Shown here in pieces: positions 5,918 through 22,761 of a stretch of DNA of 30,252 bases. How positions within the stretch are numbered: position 1 is the first letter of the stretch; every line of letters begins with the position of its first letter. A program made the position numbers and the translations under genes. The notes beneath the pieces were generated by a model. The model ran no database searches and had not been told where the DNA came from. It saw nothing but the letters and a program-made list of their open reading frames with translations. Origin of the DNA: a virus; the IMG/VR virus record IMGVR_UViG_3300033064_003572, positions 1 to 30,252 of that record; one strand, written 5' to 3'.

Positions 5918-8545
5918 GTGACTACATCATTATCTCAACAAATCTATAAAAACGGGCTAGCCAAGCCCGTGATTGCTGCTGGCGGCAGTGTACATCCGCT
6001 GATCATTCCGGCTGATTTGTCAGGCACTGGCTTGATGAATCCTTCCATTTACGTGGACGGACAAACAATTTTGGTAAATCTACGCCATGTGAATTACACA
6101 TTATGGCATAGTGAACACAAAAAGTTTGAACACAGATACGGTCCACTGCAATATCTACATCCAGAGAACGACATTCACCTTCGCACATGGAACTACATGT
6201 GCATAATGAACCCTGATCTCACAATCAAACAAGTGACCAAAGTAGATACATCTGAGTGTGATAAAGAACCAATTTGGGAATTTGTAGGATTAGAAGATGC
6301 AAGATTGTTACGCTGGGATCACAAATTATGGCTGACTGGAGTACGTAGAGATACTACCACTCACGGTGAGGGGCGTATGGAACTGTCAGAGATCAATATG
6401 TTTCTGGATCGAGTAACAGAAGATAGCCGCAAGCGCATCCCTGCACCAGGAGATAACACTAGCTATTGCGAGAAAAATTGGATGCCGGTGCTGGATCAAC
6501 CGTTTACCTATGTCAAGTGGACTAATCCCACAGAAGTAGTAAAATACGATATTGACACTGGACAAACACATGTTATATTTGCTGACTCTAATCCTCGCAT
6601 ACCCGGTGTTCCAGACTTTCGTGGCGGCAGTCAAGTTATTCCCTACGGTGACAACTACATAGCCCTAGTGCATGAAACCAACTTGTTCAACAGTCCTGCT
6701 GGTAAAAAAGATGCCACATATAGACATAGGTTTGTGATGTGGGATAGCAGTTGGAAACTGTTGGCCTATACTGATGCATTTAGTTTTATGAATGCTGACA
6801 TTGAATTTTGTTGTGGTGCAGCTTGGTATGACGATCATTTGTTGTTGACTTTTGGATTCCAGGACAATTGTGCATTTGTCTTGAAGATGCCAAAAACATG
6901 TGTGGACGAATTTATCCAACAAGCAAACTATACCAATTTAGTTGTGCCAACTATAACTCACAATGGCACAACACACAAGTTTGATTGGGGGAGACTGACC
7001 AACAACCAACAGTTCCATAACACTGTTACCAATGAAATATTTGTAGACAACGCTTATCAGCGATTTGGTGAAGTTGTCGCCGGCGATGTTGTAGTAGACA
7101 TAGGTGCTAGTGCAGGACCGTTTACCTGGAGTATTGCATCTAAAAAGCCCAGCCGTGTGATCTGTCTTGAACCACATAAAGATTTATATCCTACCCTGGT
7201 AAAAAATGTCAGTAACACAGGCATATCTGTTGTTACCATAAACAAAGCAATAGGGCATTCAGATGGGCAAAACTATAGCTGCGGCCTATACAATGAGAAC
7301 AAAGTTGAACACAGTGACGGCACAGATGGAATTGTATTAGACACCATCAAATTCAGCACATTGATAGATGAACAAAAAATCACGCATATTGATTTTCTAA
7401 AGATGGATTGCGAAGGTGGGGAATATGATGTTCTCAACAATGAAAATTTTGACTGGATCATGAACAATGTGCGTAAGATTGCCATGGAAGTGCATCTTAC
7501 CACTCCTGCACTCAAAGAAAAATTTTGCAACTTTAGAGATACTTATTTGAAAAAATTCACAGACTTCCAGGTGCTTAGTCTTGATTATGTGGATATCAAA
7601 TGGGGATTATGGGACGACTGGTTTATTAAAAATTACGGCGCAATTATGATTTATATCAATAACCCAGTTGCGGGCCCAGTTAAACAAAAGTGGCAACACT
7701 ATCCAGCACCCACACTTGAAATAACTACAATTATTCCAGAAAAAGGCTGTGTGGTTGATTGTGTATTTTGTCCACAACGCACACTGGAGGAAGTTTACAA
7801 AGGTACTAGAATCCTAACTTTAGATGCATTCAAGACCATGATTGATAAAGTGCCCACAGATGTAAGGATCACGTTTGCTGGATTTACCGAACCTTGGATG
7901 AACAAATACTGCACTGACATGGTGGTATACGCACACGAACAAGGACATCCTGTGAGTATTTTTACCACTGGAGTTGGGGTGAGCGTGGAAGATATGGAAG
8001 CAATTGTAGATATACCATTTGCTGGCAATCCCAATGGCGGTTTTGTATTGCACTTGCCAGATGCTGAAATGCTAGCAAGACATCCTATCACTCCGGGATA
8101 TCTCAAAACACTAGAGTGGATTCGAGATAATCAACACAGAATACAAAACTTCTCTGTAATGAGCATGGGCAAAGAACTGCACCCCAGCATTCGACACATA
8201 TTTGATTGGGCACCCAGTTACGATATGTGGAGCAGAGCTGGCAATCTCATTAGAGAAAGTGTGGCCAAACCGCAATTGATTACCCTGCGCGATCGCTGGA
8301 ATGCTATCACACACACCGGACCTAAGACTTGTGGATGTGTTGAAGGACTGTATCATAATGTGCTGTTGCCCAATGGCGATGTGAGTCTATGCTGTATGGA
8401 TTACGGACTAGAACATATCATTGGCAACTTGAACACACAATCATACGAAGATGTTATACCACAAGATCAGACCTGTTACGACTTGTGTAACTTTTGTGAA
8501 AACGCTACAGATCCCAAAGAAAAAATTATAACCTTCCATCGGTAA
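5918..8545 (+). CDS. Three-domain fusion: GH130-like beta-propeller + FkbM methyltransferase + radical SAM/SPASM
   Basis: GTG start; an in-frame stop lies just upstream (5882-5884) and the first internal ATG would cut into a conserved-looking region. Residues 1 to ~370 look like a five-bladed propeller of the GH130 glycosidase/phosphorylase type (VGLEDARLLRW, RGGSQVIPYGDNYIALVHET, IEFCCGAAWYDDHLLLTFG). Residues ~380-585 are an FkbM-type methyltransferase: VVDIGASAGPFTW at about 391, FLKMDCEGGEYDVL at about 493, then MEVHL. Residues ~600-875 are a radical SAM domain with the 4Fe-4S triad C611-x3-C615-x2-C618, followed by a SPASM-like Cys set (C805, C807, C825, C826, C853, C857, C860) around LPNGDVSLCC. 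Likely roles are glycan or peptide modification using two SAM chemistries. The order and combination of domains are unusual. No frameshift is visible. The gene after it starts 1 nt past its stop. Confidence 0.8.
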   Translation: MTTSLSQQIYKNGLAKPVIAAGGSVHPLIIPADLSGTGLMNPSIYVDGQTILVNLRHVNYTLWHSEHKKFEHRYGPLQYLHPENDIHLRTWNYMCIMNPDLTIKQVTKVDTSECDKEPIWEFVGLEDARLLRWDHKLWLTGVRRDTTTHGEGRMELSEINMFLDRVTEDSRKRIPAPGDNTSYCEKNWMPVLDQPFTYVKWTNPTEVVKYDIDTGQTHVIFADSNPRIPGVPDFRGGSQVIPYGDNYIALVHETNLFNSPAGKKDATYRHRFVMWDSSWKLLAYTDAFSFMNADIEFCCGAAWYDDHLLLTFGFQDNCAFVLKMPKTCVDEFIQQANYTNLVVPTITHNGTTHKFDWGRLTNNQQFHNTVTNEIFVDNAYQRFGEVVAGDVVVDIGASAGPFTWSIASKKPSRVICLEPHKDLYPTLVKNVSNTGISVVTINKAIGHSDGQNYSCGLYNENKVEHSDGTDGIVLDTIKFSTLIDEQKITHIDFLKMDCEGGEYDVLNNENFDWIMNNVRKIAMEVHLTTPALKEKFCNFRDTYLKKFTDFQVLSLDYVDIKWGLWDDWFIKNYGAIMIYINNPVAGPVKQKWQHYPAPTLEITTIIPEKGCVVDCVFCPQRTLEEVYKGTRILTLDAFKTMIDKVPTDVRITFAGFTEPWMNKYCTDMVVYAHEQGHPVSIFTTGVGVSVEDMEAIVDIPFAGNPNGGFVLHLPDAEMLARHPITPGYLKTLEWIRDNQHRIQNFSVMSMGKELHPSIRHIFDWAPSYDMWSRAGNLIRESVAKPQLITLRDRWNAITHTGPKTCGCVEGLYHNVLLPNGDVSLCCMDYGLEHIIGNLNTQSYEDVIPQDQTCYDLCNFCENATDPKEKIITFHR

Positions 8546-8546
8546 T

Positions 8547-10457
8547 ATGAAAAATTTAGCTAACTTTATTGAAAACTCAGAAGATCCTGTAATCAACTTT
8601 GAGTTGGGGAAAGAATACGAAAGCATAGGCCAGACTGGCGCAGCTATCAGTTTTTATCTTCGCACAGCAGAACGCAGTTCAACCGACTTGCAACAATACA
8701 CAGCATTAATACGATGCTGTATCTGTTTGGAACAACAAAAAACTAGAGATGATACAGAAAAAGGCCTTTTGCTAAAAGCCATAGCATTGATACCAACTAG
8801 ACCTGAGGCATATTTCTTGCTGAGTCGTGTGCATGAACGTCGCACTGAATGGCAAGAAAGTTATAGTATGGCTGTGTTAGGCCTGGAACTGGCTGATTTC
8901 AGTACTGACTCTGTGAGTGCAGAAAATTATCCTGGATATTATGGATTGTTATTCCAGAAGGGAATGACCAGTTGGTGGGTAGGACTAACTGAGCAAAGTC
9001 GACAGATCATGCTGTTCCTTAAAGACTACTACAAGATGTTGCCAGTGTACGAAAATGCGGTAAACAACAATCTTAAAAATTGTGGGTTGCCAAAGATTCC
9101 GTTGCAAGAGAATCCCAAATGGAACACTGCCCCGGACACAGTGCCATTGTTTACTCACACTTATTATGAGTCAAATATGGTCAACAATATTCGATTGTGT
9201 TTTGATGGCATCGACGATATCAAGAAAAACTTCAGTCAAAGTTATCAGGACTTGTTTGTGTTGGCAGCAAACAAAGGCAAACGTAAAGGACAATATTTAG
9301 AAATTGGTAGTGCTGACCCTTTTTACGGCAACAACACAGCTTTGTTGGAAACAATGTTTGACTGGACTGGGCTGAGCATTGAATGCAATCAGGCCAAAGT
9401 CAAAGACTTTGAGCACAGCCGCAAAAACCCTGTGATATGTACAGATGCAACCACAGTGGACTATGCTGCAATTCTTGCTAGCAAAGGGTTCACTCGAGAT
9501 ATTGATTACTTGCAAGTTGATTGCGACCCACCAGAAGTTTCGTTTGGGATCTTAAAGAGTATACCATTTGATCAATACAGATTTGCTGTGATAACATTTG
9601 AGCATGATTATTACTGTAATCACAACGTAAGAGATCAAAGTCGAGAATTTCTCAAAAGCCACGGTTATGAACTCATGGTCAGCGATGTTGCTTATAATGA
9701 AGTCCACAGCTATGAAGATTGGTGGGTTCATCCTGAGCTAGTGGATGCAGCCACAAGAAATAGTTTAAGAGCAGTTGGCAACCACATAAAGTTTGCAACA
9801 GACTACATGTTCCCTCCACGTTTGCCAACCGCAGCAGTCTCAATTGTCACTAAATCAAATATTGCTCGCACTGCTTCCACGTTGATCAATCAGCAACCCA
9901 TGCCCGGTATATGGATAGTTGATAATTTTTATCAGAATCCCGACGAGATACGCAAGTTTGCATTGGCACAAGCATATGATCAAGGCGGATTTGATAAACC
10001 TTACATAGGTGATCGTACCAAACAACAATTCTTGTTTCCTGGACTTCGAGAAGAATTTGAATATATTATGAACCGCAAGATTGTGAACTGGGAGAGTCAT
10101 GCCATGAACGGTCGATTCCAAGTGTGCAAGGAAGGTGAGCCACTGGTGTATCACTGTGATGAACAAGCCTGGGCAGGCATGTTATATTTAACTCCAGGTG
10201 CACCGTATCACTCAGGCACATCCACTCATGCGCTAAAAGGCACAGACATAAGACACGTGGCTCATCCAGAGATTATGAAATGCTTTAGGCCTGGTAGTCG
10301 CAATCTAGATCGAACCATCTTTGAACCAGTGGACTCACTTGGTAATGTGTACAACCGCTTGGTTATATTCAATGCTGGATACATTCATTCAGCCACAGAT
10401 TATTTTGGATTCAACAACGAAAACTGTCGACTATGGCAAATGTTCTTTTTTGATTGA
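8547..10457 (+). CDS. Three-domain fusion: helical repeats + FkbM-like methyltransferase + 2OG-Fe(II) oxygenase-like (DUF6445-like)
   Basis: Residues 1-190 form TPR-like helical pairs (FELGKEYESIGQTGAAISFY and PTRPEAYFLLSRVHERRTEW). Residues ~228-400 resemble an FkbM methyltransferase: SQSYQDLFVL, then YLEIGSADPFYGNNTALLE at about 251 and YLQVDCDPPE. Residues ~450-636 resemble a 2-oxoglutarate/Fe(II) dioxygenase of the DUF6445 type: IWIVDNFYQNPDEIRKFA, then an iron site H536-x-D538, distal H614 (NAGYIHSATDYFG) and a possible 2OG-binding R628. A TPR scaffold joined to a methylase and a hydroxylase suggests modification of a glycan or peptide. It lacks a clear Shine-Dalgarno and is probably coupled to the gene before it. 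Its stop abuts the stop of the convergent Nudix gene with no space between. Confidence 0.7.
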   Translation: MKNLANFIENSEDPVINFELGKEYESIGQTGAAISFYLRTAERSSTDLQQYTALIRCCICLEQQKTRDDTEKGLLLKAIALIPTRPEAYFLLSRVHERRTEWQESYSMAVLGLELADFSTDSVSAENYPGYYGLLFQKGMTSWWVGLTEQSRQIMLFLKDYYKMLPVYENAVNNNLKNCGLPKIPLQENPKWNTAPDTVPLFTHTYYESNMVNNIRLCFDGIDDIKKNFSQSYQDLFVLAANKGKRKGQYLEIGSADPFYGNNTALLETMFDWTGLSIECNQAKVKDFEHSRKNPVICTDATTVDYAAILASKGFTRDIDYLQVDCDPPEVSFGILKSIPFDQYRFAVITFEHDYYCNHNVRDQSREFLKSHGYELMVSDVAYNEVHSYEDWWVHPELVDAATRNSLRAVGNHIKFATDYMFPPRLPTAAVSIVTKSNIARTASTLINQQPMPGIWIVDNFYQNPDEIRKFALAQAYDQGGFDKPYIGDRTKQQFLFPGLREEFEYIMNRKIVNWESHAMNGRFQVCKEGEPLVYHCDEQAWAGMLYLTPGAPYHSGTSTHALKGTDIRHVAHPEIMKCFRPGSRNLDRTIFEPVDSLGNVYNRLVIFNAGYIHSATDYFGFNNENCRLWQMFFFD

Positions 10458-10892
10458 TTATCTAATACAAGTGTGTTCAAGAGAAGTTATCTTCTTTTGA
10501 ATAGTATCTAAGTTTACTGTGTTCCATAACCCTGGATGCAAGGGCCGTGGCCAGCGTCCAGTCTCAATCCAGGCATAACCTATGTGTTCGTGATTTAATT
10601 TGGGAGTGAATTCACTATCTACTCTGCACCAGAACGTGTGATATTCAAATGCAGAGTCTGGACTAGTGAATTTTTCAATTGGAATCAGCTGCTGATATTG
10701 GGGCACAGATCCCAGCTCTTCGGCACATTCTCTCTCCATGGCAACAATCAATGTTTCACCGGCCTCTACTTTGCCGCCAACAAGTCCCCATGTGTCGGGA
10801 TATTTTGAATCGTTGCGTAATAGATATAGATATCTGTTGGTATTTACAGAATAAAACCAAACTCCCACGGCTCTTACAATACCAGATTCCAT
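10458..10892 (-). CDS. Nudix hydrolase
   Basis: The Nudix box is complete: G40, E46, R54-E55, E58-E59, G61 within GGKVEAGETLIVAMERE, preceded by LLRNDSKYPDTWGLVGG. Nudix enzymes hydrolyse nucleoside diphosphates linked to another group (NDP-sugars, damaged NTPs, RNA caps); the YPDTWG context resembles NDP-sugar/8-oxo-dGTP type members, but specificity cannot be set. I chose the ATG at 10892 (MESGIVRAVGVWFY), giving 144 residues and a 19-nt overlap with the gp15 gene; a longer frame from 10946 would overlap 73 nt and add a non-family-like N terminus. It is the last gene of the minus-strand late operon. Confidence 0.85.
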   Translation of the reverse strand: MESGIVRAVGVWFYSVNTNRYLYLLRNDSKYPDTWGLVGGKVEAGETLIVAMERECAEELGSVPQYQQLIPIEKFTSPDSAFEYHTFWCRVDSEFTPKLNHEHIGYAWIETGRWPRPLHPGLWNTVNLDTIQKKITSLEHTCIR

Positions 10893-12280
10893 GTGCCGCC
10901 GGTGTATAATCCATCTATGCTTTTGACCCACTTGGTGCCATTCCAATAGAATTGAATGCCGGTGGTCAAGTTGATTACATATTGTGCATCTGTAGTATCT
11001 CTACTGTTGAATGCAACAACCCATCGTGTGCCGTCGTACTCAATGATATCATTGGCATGTGCAATTAGTGATTGGCCAGAAATTCCCTCCCACGCCACAG
11101 GATTACTTGGATTGTCTGCATTGCCTGTACTGTCGTTTAGCAAGTATCTCTGACCAGTTGCAGCAGCAGGCAAGCCATCCCCAGGTGCAGCAGTTAGAGG
11201 ATTGATAACAGCATCCACAGGCGACAATGTGTTTTGTGGCGCAGTATCGGGATCAATATTGTAAATTAACAATCGATTATCAGCTGGATTCACAGCAATG
11301 GTGCCAATGATACTGGAATCAGGATCCCAGGGATTGTCTAGAGTGATATAGCTGATGCCCGGGCGTAGCACACCATACGCTCCAATCACTGTGGGCCAAG
11401 TAATCTGTGGACTTTCTACTAGAGGAAATGTAAACGGTGCCAAGCTGATACGATCTGGATTCACTGGTTGCGGAGGCTGTAACACTTGAAGTTGCCCATC
11501 CAGCAGCAACACTTGATAACCCCACGGCGTGACTTTGACTCGAGTACCTAGCAGCAAATCATTGTCAGTCAGTGCGTTAACTGCATCACCTTGTGCATCA
11601 AAGATACTGGCAATCACACGTTCCACCACACCCAACTTCTTGACTTTGGCTGGGCTACTGATCCAGATGGGCATGCTGAATGTCATGGTCATGATGTCAA
11701 TGGGATTTTCGGTGCCCACAGGAATAGATCTTGAACTCCACTTTACACTGTCAAGATTGCACACAGTGAGACTGGTCCAGTCAATGTAGTTATCTGTGGC
11801 TTGTATTTCCAAAGCAGGATTAAACAAGGTAGCAATTTGTTCAAACAACTGCATCTTTTGGTTGGTATTGCTGGTCCAGATGTCCAAATTTATAGTTAGC
11901 TTGTAAGGCACAGGCATGAGCCTTTCAATTTGAAATGCATTGCCTTGAGTGGTTTCGTAGCTTTCTGTACCTGCATCCCATGTGCGTTGACGCACAAACA
12001 TCTTGTTCACATGATACGGCTCTTGCATGCGTTCTCTATCATATGCCAAATCAGTAATGTAAAATGTCATCAGCGGAGTGGCATTCAATGAGTTGGCAGA
12101 GTTTTGATTTAATATGGTTTGTGCTTGTCTACTGGCATCGCCATAGCGAATGGGCACACGAATCAAGTCGGATGTACCTTGTTCATTACGGCCATATTCA
12201 ACTTCAAACAAGCTGAACATGCGTGTGAATTGCAGTAGATAGCGACGGATTTGTTCGTCGTAAAAGAAAAGTTGACTCAT
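10874..12280 (-). CDS. 15: T4 gp15-like proximal tail sheath stabiliser / tail terminator
   Basis: The N-terminal ~240 residues follow T4 gp15: LFFYDEQIRRYLLQFTRMFS, IRVPIRYGD, PVPYKLTINLDIWTSNTNQK and FSMPIWISSPAKVKKLG. gp15 caps the top of the contracted-tail sheath and tube and joins tail to neck. At 468 residues it is well over T4 gp15 (272). The extra C-terminal half has a beta-rich decoration region with two W-ending units (IIEYDGTRWVV and IQFYWNGTKWVK) like those in gp14 and the sheath. It overlaps the bilin reductase stop by 4 nt (ATGA). Confidence 0.8.
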   Translation of the reverse strand: MSQLFFYDEQIRRYLLQFTRMFSLFEVEYGRNEQGTSDLIRVPIRYGDASRQAQTILNQNSANSLNATPLMTFYITDLAYDRERMQEPYHVNKMFVRQRTWDAGTESYETTQGNAFQIERLMPVPYKLTINLDIWTSNTNQKMQLFEQIATLFNPALEIQATDNYIDWTSLTVCNLDSVKWSSRSIPVGTENPIDIMTMTFSMPIWISSPAKVKKLGVVERVIASIFDAQGDAVNALTDNDLLLGTRVKVTPWGYQVLLLDGQLQVLQPPQPVNPDRISLAPFTFPLVESPQITWPTVIGAYGVLRPGISYITLDNPWDPDSSIIGTIAVNPADNRLLIYNIDPDTAPQNTLSPVDAVINPLTAAPGDGLPAAATGQRYLLNDSTGNADNPSNPVAWEGISGQSLIAHANDIIEYDGTRWVVAFNSRDTTDAQYVINLTTGIQFYWNGTKWVKSIDGLYTGGTWNLVL

Positions 12281-12957
12281 AGTCTGTGCTCTGGATACAA
12301 TACTTCGTCAATAAACTTTTTAATTACATTTTCTTCTACACCCATGCTGATCATGCTGCGAGCAACATGTGGATTTAATTTGTTGTTGGCATTGTATCGA
12401 CTTTGAATTGGCCAGTAATCATGTTCAGACTGTGCAGTTTTGCCCACGTTGTCTAAATAGTAATTCAAGTTTGCTTCTGCCAGTTGGCACAAGTTTTCTA
12501 GTTCGGTTTCGTCGCTCACATTGCCAGCAGCCACAATGTTTGAACTGAAGATCTCAGATGCCCACTGTGGTAAGACTCTGGGTTTGTTCCAGGTCACATC
12601 TTTCACAGTTTCGGCAAAGTGTTTCATCATGAAGTGGTTGGGATCACCACCGTCGCTGAAGTCATGAAATGCTCCTGTGATTTTGTTTGGGCCGCACACA
12701 GCATCAAATCCCCAAATTGGACTGGGATCATTGTAATGCGGAAACACTGTGCAATGCAACACAAGAATCTTGTGACTAGCAGTTTTATCCACAATTTCAA
12801 CGTGTGCTCTGCGATATGCTGGACTGGTGTACAGTCGATTGTACCAGTCGTAGGATTCGGCCACATCCACAATAGGTGTGCCTGTTTGCTTAAAACGTGA
12901 TTCAAAGAACTCTGCTACTTTAAACACTCGTTGCCAAAGATTAGTGGTCATATTCAT
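12277..12957 (-). CDS. Ferredoxin-dependent bilin reductase (PcyA/PebS/PcyX family)
   Basis: 226 residues, the usual length for the family. The core AHVEIVD...VLHCTVFPHYNDPSPIWGFD carries E54, H68 and D85. By spacing these match Glu76, His88 and Asp105, the catalytic residues of PcyA (H-to-D distance is 17 in both; E-to-H is 2 longer here). GPNKITGAFHDFSD follows. The enzyme reduces biliverdin IXa, the product of heme oxygenase, with electrons from ferredoxin to give a phycobilin. Which bilin is made is not shown by sequence. The position of the second catalytic Asp of PebS seems to be Asn here (KLNPHVARSM). The gene overlaps the heme oxygenase by 17 nt. A phage bilin reductase (PcyX) next to a heme oxygenase has been described from uncultured marine viruses, and this arrangement fits it. 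Confidence 0.85.
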   Translation of the reverse strand: MNMTTNLWQRVFKVAEFFESRFKQTGTPIVDVAESYDWYNRLYTSPAYRRAHVEIVDKTASHKILVLHCTVFPHYNDPSPIWGFDAVCGPNKITGAFHDFSDGGDPNHFMMKHFAETVKDVTWNKPRVLPQWASEIFSSNIVAAGNVSDETELENLCQLAEANLNYYLDNVGKTAQSEHDYWPIQSRYNANNKLNPHVARSMISMGVEENVIKKFIDEVLYPEHRL

Positions 12958-13459
12958 TTAGTATTTGGATTGCCCAATCAAAGGCAATGTTGGCTTCATC
13001 CGCCATGTTGTCAGATAGTTTGTTTCTCATGGCTGCAATCAACACAGGAGTATCTAAAAAATCCAAACTGCTGTGTGGCCCATCCACAAGTTTTTTAATC
13101 ATCTGTCCACCAAACAAATCCCCCATGTGCCATGTGTACAAATGTGCCATGATTTGTGTGGGATTGGTCAGTGTTTGTATGTAGTTATGATATTCTAACA
13201 CCGCAGGTTTAAATTCACGAGCACCACCATCCATTTTTTTATAATCTTGTGCAAGTAATTGTGACCTGCGCATGGACTCTATATCACTCATCAGGCCGTG
13301 TTTGGCTGCTGCTGATTCAATTGTGCTGTAGAACAATGATTTTTGATAGATAAAGTCTACCCAATGGTCACGTGGCAGAGTCTTGGCAAACACTGCTTTC
13401 ATGAACTGTGTGGTCTCTGCCTGGCGATGTTTATCTGCTGTAAGGTCTTTAAGGCTCAT
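12941..13459 (-). CDS. ho1: Heme oxygenase (biliverdin-producing)
   Basis: 172 residues, shorter than typical cyanobacterial HO1 (~240). It opens with LKDLTADKHRQAE, in which H11 matches the proximal heme ligand of the family's T-x-x-x-H-x-x-A-E motif. TWHMGDLFGGQMIKK (109-123) is the distal helix G-D-L-x-G-G over the heme. The reaction is heme + O2 + reductant to biliverdin IXa, CO and Fe2+. It starts 2 nt after the gp14 stop and overlaps the bilin reductase start. The tight packing between two structural genes means it shares their late transcript. No good Shine-Dalgarno is visible, so it is probably translated by coupling. Confidence 0.9.
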   Translation of the reverse strand: MSLKDLTADKHRQAETTQFMKAVFAKTLPRDHWVDFIYQKSLFYSTIESAAAKHGLMSDIESMRRSQLLAQDYKKMDGGAREFKPAVLEYHNYIQTLTNPTQIMAHLYTWHMGDLFGGQMIKKLVDGPHSSLDFLDTPVLIAAMRNKLSDNMADEANIAFDWAIQILNEYDH

Positions 13460-13461
13460 AC

Positions 13462-14835
13462 TTAGCTGGATTTCTGGTAGGGTTGTGTTGGTGGATACGG
13501 ATTGGGTGGCAAATTACCACCTTGATCACCATTGGCTGCGTCTGGTAACAATGCTTCACTCAAGCTCTGACGGCTAGGTATGTTACCAAGGTCTGGGGTA
13601 TTCACAGTGTATGTATTGTTAACAAACGATGAGCGTAGAGTATCGTTGGCGGCACCTGGTGTGAGATTGGTTCTCACATTGCTTTCAATCTTGACCCAAC
13701 CTGATCCATTGTACCGGAACAGTCGATTGGGAAAGTAATCCAATCGTAATGCAAACTGTCCAGCAATGGGATTGGGTGGAAAATTAACACCTGCAGTGAC
13801 TGGCAATCCGTTGGGTGCTTGACCATCCCCAGTTAAGTAACCTGCGGTATAGCCATCACCTCTAGGCGAATTGCCATCATTGGCCAAGGTGCTGCTGGCA
13901 TTACTGATGGTGTAGTCAGCAGTGTAGGTGGCAGATTCAGGATTGGCAGGTGTGCCGTCGGAATTGGTTGCTACAATATAAAATTTCACAACATCAAATC
14001 CAGAGCGTGGTACTTCAGCTTCAGCCTGCACCAGGATAGCATCATTGATGGCCAAGTTTCGTGGACGTGTGCTTTGACGATCCTCAATGGTTTGTGGATT
14101 GGTTTTTTCTGTCCAGTATTCTGTATTGGCAATATCTGTACCTGGTGGAACATTTTTGTTTGATGTGTAATATTTGTCGCCATACAGCACTGTGACACCA
14201 CCTGGATAAAAATTGCCCGGATCCCAAATGTTAATGGGTTCAAACGGTTGTTTGGTAATTTGATCAAACTCTTGTGCATTGACCATGGGTGTGGCTTTCA
14301 CACGCCACAAGTGAGGTAACCAAGTTTGACTGAAACCTTCGCTGGCAAATGCAGCGTCTTGAATCACATACCACTTGGGCAAGGCCCTGGGTATGGTAGA
14401 ATCCAGTGGATTGTAGTCACGTAAATTGGGAAACTCTAGAACATCTCCGCTCATGAGTTTGCGACCCATGGTATCTAGCATGTCATTATAATGGAATGTG
14501 ATAAACACAGTGTCATTGTTCAAGAACAGACCAAACTGGGTGAGATCAAAGTCAATGTCCTGTGTTTTGTAAACACCACGCATGACATAGATATCCGGAT
14601 CATAGGTTCTGTCACGATTTTCTAACAGCAGTAAATCTTCAATAAACAGCGGATTAGTAGAATCATACTTGGGTAATGTAGCATCATTGTTACCGGTGTT
14701 GTCATTGATCTGCGGCCCAAGATATTTGTGCAGATACATGTCGGCTCCCCCAATCTGATACATTTCAGAGATGGTTCGGTCAAAGAATCGATAGTCGGCC
14801 GTTCTATTAGGCCTATACATGGAAAGTCTTGGCAT
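13462..14835 (-). CDS. 14: T4 gp14-like neck protein with C-terminal decoration modules
   Basis: The first ~200 residues resemble T4 gp14: LLLENRDRTYDPDIYVMRG, then a GDVLEFPNL turn (gp14 has GDLIYFPM), and an ALPKWYVIQDAAFASEGF / WRVKATPM end. gp14 forms the neck ring with gp13 below the portal. At 457 residues it is far longer than T4 gp14 (256). The extra part includes a CBM5/12-like module at 202-244 (Y-x-x-G-G-V...LYGDKYYTS...YW) and a RLFRYNGSGWVKI unit. The gene is head of the minus operon, preceded by a late promoter only 7 nt away, with no Shine-Dalgarno. Confidence 0.75.
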   Translation of the reverse strand: MPRLSMYRPNRTADYRFFDRTISEMYQIGGADMYLHKYLGPQINDNTGNNDATLPKYDSTNPLFIEDLLLLENRDRTYDPDIYVMRGVYKTQDIDFDLTQFGLFLNNDTVFITFHYNDMLDTMGRKLMSGDVLEFPNLRDYNPLDSTIPRALPKWYVIQDAAFASEGFSQTWLPHLWRVKATPMVNAQEFDQITKQPFEPINIWDPGNFYPGGVTVLYGDKYYTSNKNVPPGTDIANTEYWTEKTNPQTIEDRQSTRPRNLAINDAILVQAEAEVPRSGFDVVKFYIVATNSDGTPANPESATYTADYTISNASSTLANDGNSPRGDGYTAGYLTGDGQAPNGLPVTAGVNFPPNPIAGQFALRLDYFPNRLFRYNGSGWVKIESNVRTNLTPGAANDTLRSSFVNNTYTVNTPDLGNIPSRQSLSEALLPDAANGDQGGNLPPNPYPPTQPYQKSS

Positions 14836-14842
14836 AGTGTGT

Positions 14843-14850
14843 TATTTATG
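14843..14850 (-). promoter_or_regulatory. T4-type late promoter (CATAAATA) for gp14 operon
   Basis: On the minus strand CATAAATA lies 7 nt before the gp14 ATG (14835), close to the T4 late consensus TATAAATA. T4 late start sites lie about 6-8 nt downstream, so the transcript would begin at or next to the ATG. It is the only visible promoter for gp14, heme oxygenase, bilin reductase, gp15 and Nudix. It is back to back with a plus-strand sigma70 promoter. Confidence 0.65.
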
Positions 14851-14856
14851 CCCAGG

Positions 14857-14885
14857 TTGACTGGAAATGCCCAATCGATTATAAT
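14857..14885 (+). promoter_or_regulatory. Sigma70 promoter, leaderless arrangement
   Basis: TTGACT (14857-14862), 17 nt spacer, TATAAT (14880-14885). Only 6 nt separate the -10 from the ATG at 14892. The expected start site coincides with the A of ATG. Confidence 0.75.
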
Positions 14886-19311: not shown

Positions 19312-22300
19312 ATGGCTCTAGTATCCCCAGGCGTAGAAGTATCAGTAATTGATGAAAGTCAATATCTTCCAGCTGCCACCAACTCAGTACCGTATTTTCT
19401 TATAGCCACAGCACAGAACAAGGCGTCTGGCAGTGGTGTTGGTGTAGCAGCAGGCACACTCGAAGTCAATGCCAACCGTGTTTATCAAATTACCAGTCAG
19501 AGAGATCTTGCAGCTACATTTGGTAATCCGTTTTTCTATAAAACTACCATTGGTACTCCTATCAATGGATATGAACTAAATGAATATGGATTGTTGGCAG
19601 CGTACAGCGCATTGGGTGTTACCAATCGTGCGTTTGTTCAACGTGTGAATATTGACCTCACTCAGCTCACAGCCACATTGGTGCGGCCCACAGGTGAACC
19701 CGACAATGGTTCTTACTGGTTGAATACAGCAACCAGTCAATGGGGTATTTTTGAGTGGAATCAAGTCACAGGAGCATTCTCCAACCAGATTCCTTCAGTT
19801 ATCACTGACACTAGTGAATTGGTTAATGGTGTGCCGTTGCAAGATTATGGCACCATCAATGGTTATGCTATTGTTGCTACCAATGTTCAAAATCCACTGT
19901 ACTATAAAAATGGTGCAGTGGCCTCTGTTGGCAATGGTAACTCTGTTACATTGACCAACTTGTATAACAATTGGGTGCTAGTAGGCAGCGACGAATGGAA
20001 ATTGAGCCATCCTACAATTCAAGGTGCCAATGCTGTGACAACAGCACTCACATCCGGCAATACTATTGTGATCAACGGTACAAGCGTGGCAGTGCCTGGA
20101 ACTACTATACAAGGACTCAGCGGAGCTATCAATACTGCTGCAATTACCGGTGTATACTCAGCTGTGCTCAGCAACAAACTTTGCTTGTTTGCCGATAGTA
20201 CAGCCACAGCTGACGGATCAACTGGTGACGATGGTCTTATTGTTATAGATTCAACTGGATCAACACCGGCATTGTTGACTACCCTGGGTATTACAGCAAA
20301 TAAAGAATACTATGCTCCGGCACTGCAACAAAGTCCCAACTACACATTTCCACGTTGGTTGTCTACAGATGACACACCACGTCCTACAGGTAGTGTGTGG
20401 AACAAGATTACTCCGCAAAATCTGGGCACAAATATAGTAGTGCAAAAATACAGCACAGCATTGGGTAGCTGGGTAACACAAGCTGCTCCGGTGTACGAAA
20501 ATGACTGGTATGCCAATGCTGCATTGGATGCCACTGGCGGTGGAAAAAATATTGCTGCTGGCACAACCTATACACAATACAACGTGAATCCTGCTGTTAG
20601 TACCGTTGGTGCGTATCCATACAACAACACCTACACATTGCAGGTGTTTGAACGAGCCAGTCAAGGTGCTACAATTGTTACAGGTAGTGTGGCTGTTCCT
20701 ACGTTCGTGAGCGGTAATACATTTACTGTGACCACAAGCATTCCAAACTCTAACAATTTGACTTCTACTGTGACAGTGACCATTACGGGTACTGATGCAG
20801 CAGCATTTAATACTGCTGTGAGTTCAGCAGGTTTTTCAAATGTTGTGGCGTCGGTTAGTTCGGCTGGTGCAATTGTACTGACACAAACTCAGGGTGGTGT
20901 TATTCTGTTGCAAAACGTTACAGGAACTCCATTGGCAGCAGCTGGATTTACCACCAGCACCACTGGTTGCCGCAACATTGTTAATGATGATCAAACTGCT
21001 TATTTACAACTCAGCAACTGGGTTCCACTAAGCTACACAGCCAGTGCTGTGGCGCCAGACCAGGATCCTGCCAACGGGACCTACTGGTACTTTACCAGTC
21101 CTAGTCAAGTTGACATCATGATCAATGATGGATCTCAATGGGTGGGATATCAAAACGATACCAACGACACACGTGGTTTCAATCTAAGCAATACCAATCC
21201 AACTGGTCCTATTATTTCGGCCACAGCACCTACCACTCAAACAGATGGCACTGTGTTGGTATACGGAGACTTATGGGTAGATACCAGCAATCTTGAACTA
21301 TATCCATTGTTGAATCGTTGGCAAGCAGTGGATGGTGTAAATCAATGGGTGACTCTGGACAACACTGATCAACAAACCTCAAATGGTATTTTGTTTGAAG
21401 ACGCTCGTTGGAGCACAACAGGAACAGTAAATCCTATCACCGACAATCTGCCTTCAATCACCAGCTTGTTGACCAGCAACTACTTGGATGTAGATGCACC
21501 TGATCCTGCACTGTATCCCGATGGTATGCTGCTGTGGAACACACGCCGATCTGGCTACAATGTCAAACTTTTCCAAGTTGACTATTTTAATGCCAGCAGC
21601 TTCAGCTATGACTCATGGTCTAGTTCTACAACCTATGCAGTAGGCGATCAAGTATTGTATAACGCTGTGTTGTATGTGGCCATTCAAGCCGGCACTAATC
21701 AGAATCCAGAGACACAAACTTCATTCTGGGATGTGTTGGAAACCAATTCATGGGTAACTGCATCTGGCAACAGAGCTGACGGTTCACCGTATATGGGACG
21801 TTTTGCTCAACGTTCATTGATTGTGGCTGCATTGAAATCAGGTATTGATACCAGTATCACAGCACGTGAAGAACAAGCACAATTCAATTTGGTGGCGTGT
21901 ACTGCATACCCTGAATTGATTCCTAACATGGTAGCACTCAGCAATGAGCGCAACAATACCTTATTTGTAGTGGGTGATACGCCAATGCGATTGGAACCAA
22001 CTGGAACTGATATTGCTGCCTGGGCCACAAACAACAGTGGTAATGGAATATTTGCAGAAGATGGATTAACAACCAGTACTCCATATGCCGCAGTGTTCTA
22101 TCCAAGTTGCCAAACTACTGATCTTGGTGGCAGTGCTGTGGTTACTGCGGCTAGTCACATGATGGTACGTACTATTATCCGCAGTGATTCGGTCAGCTAT
22201 CCATGGTTGGCACCAGCTGGAACACGTCGTGGTGTGATTGACAATGCTGCTAGAATTGGTTATATCAATAGTATCACTGGTGAGTTTGTTACAATTGGTA

Positions 22301-22761
22301 ATAATCAAGGTCTGCGTGACGTTGAGTACCTGAACAAAATCAACCCAATCACATTCTTACCAGGTGTGGGTATTACCAACTTTGGTAACAAGACCATTTA
22401 CGGTGTTACCAGTGCATTGGATCGTATCAATGTAGCACGACTGATTGCGTTCATGCGTGGTCGTTTAGACGAAATTGGTAAACAATTCTTGTTTGAACCC
22501 AACGATCAAATCACTCGTAATGAAATTGCCAATGCAATAAATGGATTGTGTATTGATCTTGTGGCCAAGCGTGGTATCTATGACTTCTTGGTAATTTGTG
22601 ATGATTCCAACAACACACCTGCTAGAATTGATGCCAACGAGTTGTGGGTAGACATTGCTATCGAACCTGTAAAGGCTGTGGAATTTATCTATATTCCATT
22701 GCGTATCAAGGCAACTGGTGCCATTGCTGACTCACAGAGTACAACACAAGCTTCTATCTAA
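19312..22761 (+). CDS. 18: Contractile tail sheath protein, T4 gp18-like, with large decoration insert
   Basis: The N terminus (MALVSPGVEVSVIDESQY) and the C-terminal ~320 residues (PAGTRRGVIDNAARIGY, INPITFLPGVGITNFGNKT, LIAFMRGRLDEIGKQFLFEP, VEFIYIPLRIKATG) are canonical gp18. At 1149 residues it is far longer than T4 gp18 (659). Residues ~130-830 are a beta-rich, Thr/Asn/Ser-rich insert with repeating W-containing units (GDLWVDTSNLELYPLLNRW, GTYWYFTSP, PDGMLLWNT). At 766-808 is a CBM5/12-like module (YDSWSSSTTYAVGDQVLY...Y...FWDV). The insert would sit on the outer surface of the sheath. Strong Shine-Dalgarno and late promoter precede it; a strong terminator follows. Confidence 0.9.
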   Translation: MALVSPGVEVSVIDESQYLPAATNSVPYFLIATAQNKASGSGVGVAAGTLEVNANRVYQITSQRDLAATFGNPFFYKTTIGTPINGYELNEYGLLAAYSALGVTNRAFVQRVNIDLTQLTATLVRPTGEPDNGSYWLNTATSQWGIFEWNQVTGAFSNQIPSVITDTSELVNGVPLQDYGTINGYAIVATNVQNPLYYKNGAVASVGNGNSVTLTNLYNNWVLVGSDEWKLSHPTIQGANAVTTALTSGNTIVINGTSVAVPGTTIQGLSGAINTAAITGVYSAVLSNKLCLFADSTATADGSTGDDGLIVIDSTGSTPALLTTLGITANKEYYAPALQQSPNYTFPRWLSTDDTPRPTGSVWNKITPQNLGTNIVVQKYSTALGSWVTQAAPVYENDWYANAALDATGGGKNIAAGTTYTQYNVNPAVSTVGAYPYNNTYTLQVFERASQGATIVTGSVAVPTFVSGNTFTVTTSIPNSNNLTSTVTVTITGTDAAAFNTAVSSAGFSNVVASVSSAGAIVLTQTQGGVILLQNVTGTPLAAAGFTTSTTGCRNIVNDDQTAYLQLSNWVPLSYTASAVAPDQDPANGTYWYFTSPSQVDIMINDGSQWVGYQNDTNDTRGFNLSNTNPTGPIISATAPTTQTDGTVLVYGDLWVDTSNLELYPLLNRWQAVDGVNQWVTLDNTDQQTSNGILFEDARWSTTGTVNPITDNLPSITSLLTSNYLDVDAPDPALYPDGMLLWNTRRSGYNVKLFQVDYFNASSFSYDSWSSSTTYAVGDQVLYNAVLYVAIQAGTNQNPETQTSFWDVLETNSWVTASGNRADGSPYMGRFAQRSLIVAALKSGIDTSITAREEQAQFNLVACTAYPELIPNMVALSNERNNTLFVVGDTPMRLEPTGTDIAAWATNNSGNGIFAEDGLTTSTPYAAVFYPSCQTTDLGGSAVVTAASHMMVRTIIRSDSVSYPWLAPAGTRRGVIDNAARIGYINSITGEFVTIGNNQGLRDVEYLNKINPITFLPGVGITNFGNKTIYGVTSALDRINVARLIAFMRGRLDEIGKQFLFEPNDQITRNEIANAINGLCIDLVAKRGIYDFLVICDDSNNTPARIDANELWVDIAIEPVKAVEFIYIPLRIKATGAIADSQSTTQASI

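Follow-up and report, generated by a model that had tools for sequence, protein, structure and literature searches.

A heme oxygenase and bilin reductase pair in the virion operon of a jumbo-like freshwater myophage: a probable mobile auxiliary cassette at the gp14/gp15 junction

The DNA analysed here (hereafter the window) is a stretch of 30,252 nt, positions 1 to 30,252 of IMG/VR record IMGVR_UViG_3300033064_003572. It belongs to a jumbo-like freshwater myophage related to jumbo myophages of Pseudomonas and Rhizobiales. On its minus strand, a structural gene (called gp14), a heme oxygenase (HO), a bilin reductase (FDBR), gp15, and a NUDIX gene follow one another (Table 1), which raises the question of how genes for bilin synthesis came to lie within a virion operon and what they do there. 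HO-FDBR cassettes in marine and freshwater phages, their formation of phycocyanobilin (PCB), and their unclear role in hosts without phycobilisomes have been published (PMC11480375), and cyanomyoviruses are known to have taken up metabolic genes within their structural module (PMC2984593).

Operon anatomy and the late promoter box

Table 1 Features of the operon that contains the HO-FDBR pair, in window coordinates
Feature	Position	Strand	Evidence or remark
Structural protein "gp14", first operon gene	13462..14835	-	PHROG_11591 "virion structural protein", E 5.4e-84
Heme oxygenase (HO), 172 aa	12941..13459	-	PF01126, E 1e-17
FDBR, 226 aa, PcyA-type triad	12277..12957	-	PF05996, E 7e-14; true start may be 12951
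gp15, T4 tail sheath stabiliser family	10874..12280	-	PF16724, E 3.5e-29
NUDIX hydrolase, last operon gene	10458..10946	-	PF00293, E 5e-15
T4-type late box CATAAATA	14843..14850	-	7 nt before gp14-like ATG
Divergent sigma-70-type promoter TTGACT-17-TATAAT, opposite non-late genes	14857..14885	+	11/12 match

The original prediction placed the pair between a structural gene and gp15, with a gap of 2 nt between gp14 and HO, an HO/FDBR overlap of 17 nt, and an FDBR/gp15 overlap of 4 nt, and the coordinates confirm this arrangement; in the last overlap, the FDBR stop and the gp15 start share an ATGA. Alignment with relatives indicates that FDBR may start at its second Met, which would shorten the HO/FDBR overlap to 11 nt. 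Of the names proposed for the flanking genes, gp15 stands and gp14 is less secure. The gp14-like protein matches a family of virion structural proteins, but no match to the T4 neck family PF11649 was found at E ≤ 1 in the window or in a 157-kb relative (L001), while gp14 of Pelagibacter phage Mosig EXVC030M (MT647606) matches that family at 1.6e-35. An HH comparison of the gp14-like protein with Mosig gp14 gave no match, its fold model (pLDDT 36) is unusable for identification, and the name "gp14" is accordingly a weak one. Homologues of this gene are likewise located upstream of gp15 in phages PAC2 and Atu_ph07, and in PAC2 a NUDIX gene likewise follows gp15. Elsewhere in the window, an 1149-aa tail sheath protein (19312-22761) contains an internal CBM_5_12-like carbohydrate-binding module, and a FkbM methyltransferase-radical SAM/SPASM fusion lies beside a glycosyltransferase/TPR/minor-coat (DUF6445) protein (5918-8545 and 8547-10457). 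A relationship of this minor-coat/DUF6445 neighbour to the 2OG oxygenases of Mosig was considered and rejected, since the comparison gave no support.

The late box in front of the first operon gene is kept in relatives: a strict NATAAATA motif lies at most 35 nt upstream of the gp14-like gene in 50 of 58 of them, and in PAC2, a related jumbo phage, the homologous gene is preceded by GATAAATA. The number of boxes in the window is not above chance (4 observed vs 5.7 expected), and only their placement is non-random, all four being near gene starts. In the 157-kb relative, 9 of 19 boxes are found within 60 nt upstream of a gene start, compared with a background of 5%. Placement at gene starts was scored instead of a reversed-pattern control, because the box motif reads the same backwards. 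The proposal that the pair is part of a late-type transcription unit was supported as well: in nine carriers, the coding strand of the final 400 nt of gp14 and of HO contains neither NATAAATA nor a sigma-70-like site of at least 9/12, and an early promoter inside gp14 was rejected on these grounds. A sigma-70-like match on the minus strand (14905-14878) overlaps the -10 element of the divergent plus-strand promoter; relatives keep the plus-strand -10, and the minus-strand hexamer changes. We infer that late-phase transcription of the gp14-HO-FDBR-gp15 unit would be driven by the box in front of gp14. Because this box is so close to the ATG, a late transcript with a canonical start would have a leader of approximately 2 nt, making a near-leaderless mRNA possible. 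Almost every freshwater relative shows the 7-nt spacing from box to ATG; the PAC2 leader is normal and contains AGGAG.

Predicted enzymes and their product

The HO sequence passes the PF01126 cut-off, and alignment to the HmuO-type heme oxygenase 1iw0 shows that the proximal His (His11) and the GDxxGG distal helix (GDLFGGQ) are kept. By sequence, the best PDB match of FDBR is PcyX (5owg, E 1e-39). Its fold model is confident (pLDDT 91), and a fold search with this model was headed by PcyA, PcyX, and PebS structures, with PcyA first. The catalytic triad Glu54-His68-Asp85 is equivalent to Glu76, His88, and Asp105 of PcyA; where PcyX has Asp (Asp55) instead of Glu76, the window FDBR and all of its close kin have Glu. 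In a tree of 90 sequences, the window FDBR falls into a Glu-bearing phage clade, apart from both the Asp-bearing (PcyX) clade and the PcyA sequences of cyanobacteria and cyanophages. A PcyA-specific residue, Glu76 is required to reduce the 18-vinyl group (PMC10151467), and PCB formation has been demonstrated for the related freshwater enzyme of CB_2, in which the PcyX Asp55 is missing (PMC11480375). Since FDBR carries the Glu-His-Asp triad of PcyA, PCB is its predicted product.

Among known systems, the vhemO-vpcyA/X cassette of CB_2 is similar to the pair described here in being a freshwater phage HO with an FDBR that lacks the PcyX-specific residue (PMC11480375). CB_2 differs from the window in also having an ALA synthase. 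The three-gene cassette hemO-pcyA-alaS was not found here, as ALA synthase is absent from the 157-kb relative and present in CB_2-like contigs (L020-L022), all of these contigs being incomplete. The CB_2-like pairs are located near ClpS or ketoacyl synthase genes, whereas the window pair lies between gp14 and gp15. Cyanophage pcyA genes (P-SSM7, P-RSM4, and P-SSM3) resemble the window FDBR in being phage-borne and in encoding the same triad; however, their proteins are at most 24% identical to it and form a separate clade, and no HO gene is annotated beside them.

Both genes are under purifying selection, with dN/dS values of 0.11-0.17 for HO and 0.05-0.08 for FDBR, a substitution pattern that marks them as functional genes and rules out that either is broken or decaying. 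In L021, L022, L142, L143, L151, and L161, a tandem pair of FDBRs comes after HO; the leading one has Asp, as in PcyX, and the trailing one Glu, as in PcyA, so that one phage may make two bilin products. An FDBR clade in phages L119, L125, L154, L158, L162, L163, and L173 has Ser where PcyA has Glu76. Contigs L188 and L189, binned to Halobacteroidaceae and Neomarinimicrobiota MAGs and possibly phage contigs in those bins, also encode FDBRs of the PcyX clade.

Occupied, empty, and otherwise occupied junctions

A search of viral metagenomes, proposed as a check of the original prediction, recovered the gp14-HO-FDBR-gp15 order in related phages, namely in nine further IMG/VR contigs; five more end at contig edges. 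Among the best gp15 relatives, gp14 and gp15 are directly adjacent and without the pair in 63, often with the same 2-nt gap. These include the nearest kin of the window (L029, gp15 97% identical at the amino acid level), whose DNA aligns with the window right to the junction on both flanks (90% and 93% nucleotide identity). The HO-FDBR pair is optional in these relatives, and the gp15 tree requires at least four to five gains or losses of it. Relative to clade-B carriers, the window shows a synonymous divergence (dS) of 0.37-0.52 in HO and FDBR, compared with 1.07-1.48 in gp14 and 1.27-1.93 in gp15. The pair is thus two to four times less diverged than its flanks, a ratio that is approximate because dS values above 1 are near saturation, and therefore moved between phage backbones after these had diverged.

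A solitary FDBR in an unrelated phage neighbourhood (L010, 8001-8675), with no HO, has 88% DNA identity to the window gene, and the five bases past its stop codon (GTCAA) equal the start of gp15. This match, although short, hints that the L010 gene may have been transferred out of a gp14-gp15 operon.

The same junction is also used by other genes. In L045 (4510-5004) and L050 (4453-5004), it contains a GIY-YIG homing endonuclease that starts at the same 2-nt spacing, and a 94-nt stretch at the junction of L032 (4907-5000) resembles the start of such an endonuclease. In Atu_ph07, a lysin gene is located between the homologous gp14-like and gp15 genes. Homing endonucleases have been reported at the boundaries of phage gene exchange (PMC10448857), and they may open the gp14/gp15 site for cargo. 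Host-like metabolic genes within the structural module are likewise a feature of the hyperplastic region of cyanomyoviruses; that region spans g15 to g18, whereas the window phage uses the single gp14/gp15 junction. A second cargo position, before gp14, contains a polysaccharide deacetylase gene in L004, L045, L052, L060, and L098. NUMOD3 ORFs are present in L032 and L047.

Late boxes in other phages and the role of the bilin

The coupling of the pair to a late structural operon had been thought to set this phage apart from known ones, a contrast that did not hold. The hemO-pcyX pair of Mosig also overlaps and adjoins neck genes, with a late box (AATAAATA) directly before HO at a distance of 18 nt. 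It differs from the window pair in being directly upstream of gp13-gp14-gp15 and not inside the gp14-gp15 junction, in its PcyX-type FDBR (Asp at the catalytic site, a PEB-forming lineage, vs Glu), and in its Kyanoviridae backbone. Cyanophage pcyA is sometimes located in structural gene blocks too, between cpeT and gp5 in P-SSM7, where a late box precedes CP12-cpeT-pcyA, and just before gp17-gp18 in P-RSM4; no late box was found near pcyA in P-SSM3 and P-RSM4. Across 53 loci of other HO-bearing phages, the 1 kb preceding HO contains a late box on the coding strand in 38 and on the other strand in none, many of these loci being related and not independent events. The boxes cluster before HSP20, before ClpS, or directly before HO. 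Late placement of phage HO-FDBR cassettes thus looks common, not exceptional, as judged from the positions of these motifs. A recurrent neighbourhood in large freshwater phages (L119-L165, e.g. L019:6690-11314) consists of HSP20-ClpS-HO-FDBR, a variable ORF of 350-600 aa, and CsgF-CsgG, with late boxes before HSP20 and after FDBR. It is conceivable, but in our view quite improbable, that several aquatic phage lineages make bilin as a late-class function and that the repeated placement of HO-FDBR cassettes behind late promoters reflects an action of bilin on assembly, lysis, or released virions and not on energy metabolism during replication.

The explanation that we consider probable is that HO and a PcyA-type FDBR together form a laterally mobile auxiliary metabolic cassette, which sits at the gp14/gp15 junction and uses the late promoter of the operon for bilin metabolism in the late cell. 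The cassette would have been inserted exactly at the gene junction of a jumbo-like freshwater myophage, co-opting both the late promoter and translational coupling. HO would open heme to biliverdin, iron, and CO, and FDBR would reduce biliverdin to phycocyanobilin with host ferredoxin. The gain would most likely come from a metabolic effect that the reduced bilin has on the cell late in infection, heme turnover being a side effect, and candidate targets of the bilin include a host photoreceptor, a bilin-binding globin, and redox protection. This explanation assumes a supply of heme, ferredoxin, and a target for the bilin. A phage ferredoxin gene was found in Mosig only, and the 157-kb relative, a fragment of a probably larger genome, has no match to ALA synthase, PHY, GAF, phycobilisome, Photo_RC, or Fer2.

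FDBR is present without HO in two related loci, L010 and L017, although HO could sit elsewhere in those incomplete contigs, suggesting that the reduced bilin matters and not iron release alone. This weighs against the strongest alternative, iron supply, in which iron freed by HO from host heme at a late stage of infection would serve the virion or Fe enzymes and FDBR would only clear biliverdin; the L010 and L017 phages would release no iron. Such a function has been discussed for these cassettes (PMC11480375), its late timing would be compatible with virion assembly, and in Mosig four 2OG-Fe(II) oxygenases and a ferrochelatase lie beside the pair. However, mere clearance would not require the residues for PcyA regiospecificity, which are under strong selection in FDBR, and we regard iron supply as unlikely.

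The original prediction had also raised a virion role, with bilin or the two enzymes built into the particle or needed for neck and tail assembly. While the late box, the position between gp14 and gp15, and the adjacency of HO-PcyX to neck genes in Mosig are what such a role would lead one to expect, the 63 relatives that share the same gp14 and gp15 do without the pair, and most other phages have the cassette in an HSP20-ClpS neighbourhood. Seven phage records lack GAF and phycobilisome domains and the partial genome of the 157-kb relative has no PHY or other bilin-binding domain, so that this role now appears very improbable. Photosynthetic light harvesting, with the pair maintaining the antenna pigments of a phototrophic host as proposed for cyanophage ho1/pebS/pcyA (PMC11480375), is hardly credible for a phage whose kin infect Pseudomonas and Rhizobiales, whose FDBR falls outside the cyanobacterial/cyanophage clade, and whose 157-kb relative contains no Photo_RC or phycobilisome gene, Photo_RC being absent from the seven phage records as well.

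What the analysis adds is the jumbo-like lineage, a defined gp14/gp15 cargo site that may be empty or carry an endonuclease, and the regular occurrence of late boxes ahead of the cassette; a published figure may already contain parts of the marine arrangement. As a mobile cassette, the pair extends a known auxiliary function to a new phage lineage in which its mode of movement is visible, at one junction of a virion operon that may be empty or contain either the metabolic pair or a homing endonuclease. The tendency of phage HO-FDBR cassettes to sit behind late promoter boxes bears on what bilins do in phages of hosts that have no known need for them.
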